A DNA stretch of 42,342 nt. Origin: Candidatus Woesearchaeota archaeon (GTDB lineage Archaea > Nanobdellota > Nanobdellia > Woesearchaeales > UBA10200). Shown here one piece after another: positions 3,759-38,979 of this stretch. Made by a program: the position numbers and the translations under genes. Position 1 is the first letter of the stretch. The number at the start of each line of letters is the position of its first letter. Location: NCBI GenBank assembly GCA_016180275.1, contig JACPBN010000007.1, positions 1 through 42,342 of the forward strand, written 5' to 3'. The notes beneath the pieces were generated by a model. That model did no database searches, had not been told where the DNA came from, and saw only the letters and a program-made list of their open reading frames with translations.

Positions 3759-3890
3759 GGATTGACAGAATAAATTAAATGTATAAAAAGTTATGGGTTG
3801 GAAGATTTGGATTTGATTTAGAAGAGTGTTAATTTGTGCATGTAAAAATTAGGTATTTGTTTAGCATGTGTGATAAAATCCTCTAAAGCG

Positions 3891-4079
3891 GTGGCGACTG
3901 CCGACGAATACTGGCAGGTAATATTAAAGAGTTGCTCCTCCTCTACGCTCAGATAGTAGATGTGATAATAGTAAAGCATTGCATGATGTGTTTATGAATG
4001 TGTAGTTAGAAGGTCTTGCCCGTCGCAACTTATCACAGTTACTGTAGAATTATGTTCGTCATATAATGGCAGTCGCCAC
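3891..4079. ncRNA. Structured intergenic element, copy A
   Basis: GTGGCGACTGCC (3891-3902) pairs with GGCAGTCGCCAC (4068-4079); inner helix GACGAATA/TATGTTCGTC; shared core AAAGAGTTGCTCCTCCTCTAC and TTGCCCGTCGCAACTTA. Strand unresolved. Confidence 0.55.
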
Positions 4080-4130
4080 CACTTTTGATGTTGTTATAAC
4101 TAAACAAATACAAAATTAGTTTTAGAATTA

Positions 4131-18615: not shown

Positions 18616-18735
18616 GATAGTTATTGTAATTTAATTTGTGTTATTAAATCTACCTGTTTGTTTTGATTGAAATCAGTTTTATCAATAAAAATATAAAAGA
18701 TTATAAGATAAGTGATTACATTTAAACGAAAAGCA

Positions 18736-18923
18736 GTGGCGACTGCCGACGAACACCGGAAAGAAAGAAAAAAGAGTTGCTCCTCCTCTACATTTAGGGA
18801 TGCAACTTTGTAATTTGGTAAAACATCACATAAGTTAATCACTTAGTCAATGGTCTGCATTGCCCGTCGCAACTTAGTATAGTTATTGTGGATTTGTGTT
18901 CGTCAAATAATGGCAGTCGCCAC
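18736..18923. ncRNA. Structured intergenic element, copy B
   Basis: GTGGCGACTGCC-GACGAACAC ... GTGTTCGTC-AAATAAT-GGCAGTCGCCAC; core identical to copies A and C (18771-18791, 18860-18876). Confidence 0.6.
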
Positions 18924-19013
18924 AGATTTTGATCTAAACTCATTGGAAAACATTATAAATAAAGCTGAATAATTTATGCAAATAATGTAGTTTTGCATTT
19001 GGAGGAAATCTTT

Positions 19014-22105: not shown

Positions 22106-22307
22106 AAAAGCCAGAACTGTGGCTTTGTCTCAAGTCGGAAATTTATATACTGCGTATACAAATTTCCGCCTTTCGACCGTCGCCTGCGAACACTGGCAAA
22201 GTTTATTACAAGGAACTTGCCTTTCATGGAACCTCCGGCAAGTTCTTGCAGGAATCCATAAAGGTGTTCGCAAAATTGGCGACGTCAGCCACAGCTCTGG
22301 CTTTTTT
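22106..22307. ncRNA. Structured intergenic element, copy D (divergent)
   Basis: AAAAGCCAGAACTGTGGCT / AGCCACAGCTCTGGCTTTT outer helix; GTCGCC-TGCGAACAC ... GTGTTCGCA-AAATT-GGCGAC matches the architecture of copies A-C. Confidence 0.45.
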
Positions 22308-27076: not shown

Positions 27077-27282
27077 AGTTAAGGCAGTGGCTACGCCTGC
27101 GAGCACTCGCTTAGATTATTGAAGAGTTGCTCCTCCTCTACGCATAGTTAAGATGCAACCTCGCTAGAATAGTTAGTTGTTATGAATATTGCTACCTTAC
27201 CAGTTCAAGTTCGCCCGTCGCAACTTAAGATGTTTTTATTGATTTGTGCTCGCCAAAATTGGCTGTAGCCACTGCCTTAACT
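27077..27282. ncRNA. Structured intergenic element, copy C
   Basis: AGTTAAGGCAGTGGCTAC (27077-27094) / GTAGCCACTGCCTTAACT (27265-27282); GCGAGCAC/GTGCTCGC; core at 27121-27141 and 27211-27227. Confidence 0.6.
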
Positions 27283-37776: not shown

Positions 37777-37825
37777 AGAAAGTGGGCTGCTGCGACGCTT
37801 ATCGCATATATTTTTAAGAGCTTTA

Positions 37826-37860
37826 TGTTACACGTAACATCTTTTCTATTATATGTAACA
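37826..37860. repeat. Flanking repeat L: two 14-bp near-palindromes (TGTTACACGTAACA, TATTATATGTAACA) at 21-bp period
   Basis: Read directly; about 30/35 identical to 38945-38979. Confidence 0.6.
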
Positions 37861-38908: not shown

Positions 38909-38944
38909 AAGCTAACTATACTAGTTAGGATATATAAATTTTTC

Positions 38945-38979
38945 TGTTATTTGTAACATCTTTTCTGTTATTTGTAACA
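38945..38979. promoter_or_regulatory. Flanking repeat R / putative operators: TGTTATTTGTAACA x2 at 21-bp period upstream of the HEPN-like gene
   Basis: Exact TGTTATTTGTAACA at 38945-38958 and 38966-38979; TATA (AATTTATATATCC on minus strand) immediately adjacent. Confidence 0.55.

Follow-up and report, generated by a model that had tools for sequence, protein, structure and literature searches.

Structured repeats at the locus

The window analysed here, 42,342 nucleotides long, is contig C61 of a Candidatus Woesearchaeota metagenome-assembled genome (1.37 Mb in 97 contigs, 76% complete), hereafter the host. On its complementary strand a SecD/SecF-type gene precedes a non-coding element, copy A, with the stop of the gene lying ~20 bases from the right end of the element. 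Copy A is a complete type-1 member of a repeat family (Table 1), contains no open reading frame of at least 80 amino acids within its 259 bp and folds better than its shuffled counterparts (z -4.8). An initial annotation of this DNA had described a unit of ~189 nt (3891-4079), bounded by a 12-bp inverted repeat and holding a second helix offset by a 3'-side bulge and a pairing of AGTTGC with GCAACT; the three helices and the bulge were found exactly where it had placed them, and the unit itself is real but too short, forming the inside of the longer element.

Table 1. Coordinates of copy A, its parts and the other family members in the window
Feature	Position	Strand	Remarks
Copy A, complete type-1 element	3853-4111	+	259 bp; terminal repeats, flush 8-bp duplication
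Copy A terminal repeats	GTATTTGTTTAGC 3853-3865; ACTAAACAAATAC 4099-4111		13 bp, one mismatch
Left target-site duplication AAAATTAG	3845-3852		identical to 4112-4119
Right target-site duplication AAAATTAG	4112-4119		exact 8 bp
P1 5' arm GTGGCGACTGCC	3891-3902	+	partner of 4068-4079; type-to-type covariation; innermost pair invariant
P1 3' arm GGCAGTCGCCAC	4068-4079	+	partner of 3891-3902
P2 5' arm	3903-3911	+	pairs with 4052-4060; six pairs changed on both sides
P2 3' arm	4052-4060	+	partner of 3903-3911
A/T-rich 3'-side bulge, P2/P1 junction	4061-4067	+	from the alignment; copy D has one too
P3 5' arm AGTTGC	3930-3935	+	pairs with 4025-4030
P3 3' arm GCAACT	4025-4030	+	partner of 3930-3935
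Box 1 remainder TCCTCCTCTAC	3936-3946	+	CCTCTA part nearly invariant, even when P3 changes
Box 2 TTGCCCG	4016-4022	+	CCC constant across 59 distinct copies
Copy B, type 1 without GTATTTG ends	18721-18938	+	157.5 bits; outer arms 18721-18747 / 18912-18938
Copy C, same boxes, different P1/P2 sequence	27078-27280	+	153 bits
Copy D, short relative: P1, bulge, P2, no boxes	22106-22307	+	outer limits read from sequence

The two further close copies claimed at the outset, B and C, are genuine and share both boxes with A. Box 1 (AGTTGCTCCTCCTCTAC) and box 2 (GCCCGTCGCAACTTA) each have three exact occurrences in the window, all of them in A, B and C; at up to three mismatches chance would supply 0.09 and 0.32 matches respectively, and a search of the window at that tolerance returned no box match beyond these copies. 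A covariance model run with its filters off scored the three at 153-180 bits. Copy B sits between divergent genes, and copy C has the sense opposite to copy A relative to the neighbouring genes. The "copy D" mentioned in passing by the initial annotation is presumably a shorter relative, which the model matches at 22174-22292 (45.8 bits, E 1e-9); it keeps P1, the A/T bulge and P2 around a different inner hairpin of its own. Short forms of this kind recur (L116, L130, L102), and since they and copy D are without boxes, the boxes are dispensable in some members. Long forms (L193, L196, L203, L206, L161, L153) carry additional paired arms, such as AAAATCGCTCGTTGGTGG / CCACCAGAGCGATTTT.

Abundance and distribution

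Copies A, B and C were correctly identified, but the family is not one of three or four members: variants included, the host genome holds about 100, a figure that is an estimate and no exact count. Box 1 with at most two mismatches occurs at 75 places in the host genome, its reversed control pattern at none, and searches with box 2, the terminal repeat and the P1-P2 arms led to further places. At roughly one copy per 12-18 kb, this is a heavy load for a genome so small. In the three genomes of the genus, a strict two-box pattern was matched 50, 39 and 15 times; 58 further genomes of the order gave no match. Close copies are present in three relatives of the host, the carriers being the Candidatus Woesearchaeota MAGs UBA10200, RIFCSPHIGHO2_02_FULL_37_9 and RIFCSPHIGHO2_02_FULL_36_9, and the covariance model found no convincing match in 144 other genomes of the order. 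Weak matches in two genomes (G039 and G142, 25-26 bits) were set aside as chance, matching the boxes only partially in a large search space.

The viral contigs searched contained no exact two-box match, and Rfam, searched at gathering and at permissive thresholds, returned a tRNA as the only hit in the window and nothing better than E 3.9 for copy A, in agreement with the initial annotation, which had not recognised a known family. Nor was a description of this Woesearchaeota repeat family found in the literature searched, which comprised open-licence papers only. The host frequently has GTATTTG ends, which its two relatives rarely have, and this suggests that the host underwent a recent burst of copies with these ends. 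Many host contigs (C2, C9, C16, C22, C37, C70, C72 and C93) begin ~80-100 bases away from a terminal repeat; the host assembly was therefore probably broken by the family's repeats.

Ends, target-site duplications and empty sites

Type-1 copies reach past the unit first described to GTATTTGTTTAGC/GCTAAACAAATAC ends, type-2 copies have GTATGTGCATAG ends, and the pattern GTATxTGxxTAG is common to both. Of 26 type-1 copies, 11 have 8-bp flanks that are exact duplicates and 18 have flanks with at most one mismatch, the rate in mismatched controls being 0.3%; the signal peaks at 8 bp with zero offset and drops at 9 bp. At the same offset, type-2 flanks match with at most one mismatch in 9 of 31 copies, where 0.17 would be expected. 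The site of copy A is empty in the sister species RIFCSPHIGHO2_02_FULL_37_9, which has a single AATTAG at the orthologous place (compared with L099). A second empty site emerges from comparing L151 with L140, and several further candidate sites are empty or filled depending on the species. Such species-specific insertions are a source of divergence between close relatives.

One intergenic region in two species (L163, L127) harbours elements of different types flanked by different duplications ~8 bp apart, and because types and duplications differ these are two insertions. Another insertion (L059/L256) is common to two species, whose flanks have diverged and both of whose copies retain the folded core. 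At a third place, the host copy (L160) and its counterpart in UBA10200 (L126) share a homologous left flank and lie in opposite orientations, the result of either an inversion between the arms or a second insertion.

The family thus combines what characterises MITEs: short, ORF-less sequences with terminal inverted repeats, target-site duplications and empty sites in relatives. With 8-bp duplications significant in both main types and the sister site empty, we regard it with considerable confidence as a non-autonomous, mobile, MITE-like DNA element. An integron-like attC site, or another site for site-specific recombination, would share the long hairpin with extrahelical bases and could claim the apparent inversion at one site; set against the target duplications and empty sites, conservation that lies inside the element rather than at its ends, and copies spaced ~12-18 kb apart instead of around cassettes, this explanation is highly improbable.

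A search for the source of mobility, in genomes 64-76% complete, yielded no paired ends 0.7-3 kb apart that would mark an autonomous copy, and no match to any of three transposase Pfam families that carried the family's ends. PF01609 was matched only in one relative, by a copy that an internal stop interrupts, and PF00872 had no match in the genomes searched. An IS1595-type transposase of UBA10200 (L208) was considered as a parent and rejected, having ends of its own (GGTGATTA...) and a neighbourhood without those of the family.

Covarying arms around conserved boxes

Almost every copy forms P1, P2 and P3, and each of these helices shows changes in both arms, as the initial annotation had proposed in describing one family whose covarying helices surround a conserved core. 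The covariation score of the helices is 0.375; shuffling lowers it to 0.166, and sliding the partners leaves 0.10 or less; for P2 and P3 together, across 59 copies, it is 0.336 against 0.153. P3 alone scores 0.168 and is equalled by a three-column slide (0.167), because its letters are mostly A and T; its fraction paired is 79.5% against 44% for that slide. The P1 helices of L174, L161, L149 and L110 are mutually unrelated in sequence, each still complementary. The core had also been called invariant, which comes close to the truth for the loop boxes but not for P3, whose sequence is changed in 12 of 131 distinct copies, each time fully compensated, by exchange of GTTGC/GCAAC for GTTAC/GTAAC or in nine-pair variants (AGTTTTTCC/GGAAAAACT, AGTTTTTCT/AGAAAAACT, AGTTTTTTC/GAAAAAACT), while the neighbouring CCTCTA and CCC letters stay unchanged. 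P3 differs, again with compensation, even between the two descendants of the shared insertion (L059 and L256).

Type-1 copies found by one arm only, their right side intact, nearly all keep recognisable boxes, and these are also seen in arm-only copies without detected GTATTTG ends; the arm-only search is independent of the boxes, so no ascertainment on the boxes enters. Because they have been kept in old shared insertions, something probably constrains them, be it as RNA, as a hairpin of single-stranded DNA or as a site for a protein. Exchange between copies could be an alternative keeper, since copy A and the type-2 copy L029 have nearly identical loops even though their arms are of different types. 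The suggestion that the conserved box acts as an anti-Shine-Dalgarno found no support: copy D does without it, and P3 variants alter the CU-rich run in part, along with the sequence that pairs with it. GCCCGTCGC may resemble a conserved stretch of 16S rRNA.

Such variable but paired arms around fixed boxes make selection on nucleic-acid structure testable, and the interior is likely to be under selection for its folded nucleic-acid form. Against selection, compensated arms could instead arise from gene conversion or template switching.

Which molecule and which strand

G-U pairs are tolerated in a selected RNA helix and should exceed A-C mismatches on the selected strand. On the strand on which the family was first described, mismatched pairs comprise 32 G-U against 56 A-C (type 1: 25 and 49; type 2: seven of each); counted once per position, about 20 A-C and 17 G-U distinct cases remain and the difference is nearly gone, so that neither strand is strongly supported as RNA, the described strand least. 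Covarying helices, one hallmark of a functional RNA, are thus present, and a wobble preference on the transcribed strand, another, is absent. Where the flanking genes, identified solely by ORF length, run in the same direction, the sense strand is the complementary one in 38 cases and the described one in 19 (two-sided binomial ~0.016). The initial annotation's view that covariation favours a functional RNA over a DNA repeat, and any further step to an RNA on the described strand, find no support in view of the 8-bp duplications and empty sites, the missing wobble preference and this bias towards the opposite strand.

Mismatches without strand asymmetry, together with the terminal repeats and target duplications, would also suit a plain MITE whose boxes are a transposase or host-protein site on double-stranded DNA and whose pairing is a by-product of palindromes. 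Such an element does not account for P3 pairing kept through its compensated changes, nor for a P1 that takes many unrelated yet complementary sequences, and we consider it unlikely.

A structured RNA with a cis-regulatory or trans-acting function, spread by means of mobile ends and transcribed from the strand complementary to the described one as 3' UTR of the neighbouring gene, would suit the look of the interior: arms free in sequence yet paired, loop boxes nearly fixed and forms with extra paired arms. On that strand, sense so often between co-directional genes, the mismatches beside P3 read as tandem G-A, and variants have Watson-Crick pairs in their place. However, counting by position shows no wobble excess, copies such as C are oriented the other way, and at one shared site the orientations are opposed in two species, leaving this explanation unlikely. 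We hold to be doubtful its fullest version, in which DPANN archaea would have a mobile structured RNA that resides in 3' UTRs and multiplies by transposition, its internal motif being fixed and its arms, loops and peripheral helices exchangeable.

The combination that we favour, a MITE-like mobile family with a structural requirement on its inside, is, taken as a whole statement, probably correct. Its non-autonomous elements of ~190-350 bp insert into intergenic DNA rich in A/T, where they duplicate 8 bp of the target, and would be moved by a transposase that acts in trans on their ends of ~12 bp. The hairpin inside (P1, bulge, P2, P3 and loop boxes) may be kept as a needed folded form, acting perhaps as single-stranded DNA during transposition or as RNA made by read-through from neighbouring genes, and exchange between copies would shuffle arms and loops.

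Comparison with known mobile repeats

Ordinary MITEs are conserved at their ends; what is new here is a MITE-like family in which that usual conservation is partly inverted. The SM1-SM4 MITEs of Sulfolobus solfataricus, with 25-44 copies per family, are similarly short and non-coding, with terminal inverted repeats, direct repeats and A/T-rich intergenic targets (PMC10969869). Compared with them, the Woesearchaeota family has arms that differ strongly between types yet remain complementary, loop boxes that are nearly fixed, and no known parent transposon. In the Bacillus cereus group, the bcr1-bcr18 repeats are likewise MITE-like, intergenic and conserved in their folding, some members being predicted RNA elements transcribed in UTRs (PMC3446304, PMC2267715); their hosts are bacteria, and the likeness is one of description. 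Correia/NEMIS, ERIC, RUP, YPAL and CIR, as presented in part of one source, are mobile repeats of small size that fold into long stem-loops once transcribed, and YPAL also has internal inverted repeats and empty sites (PMC2229807). The Woesearchaeota family similarly folds into long stem-loops; these repeats belong to other organisms and have other duplication sizes, and fixed loop boxes, a feature of the Woesearchaeota family, are not seen for them in that part of the source (PMC2229807).

Other repeats in the window

The window also contains repeats of other kinds. Separate imperfect direct repeats lie at 1404-1444, 1757-1797 and 1864-1904 and at 1431-1515 / 1892-1976, up to 82% alike over 85 nt. 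A 39-nt direct repeat (37822-37860 / 38941-38979) is 85% alike and has repeated TGTAACATCTTTTCT motifs, and at 86-152, near the contig start, 30-nt arms in inverted orientation flank a loop of 7 nt.
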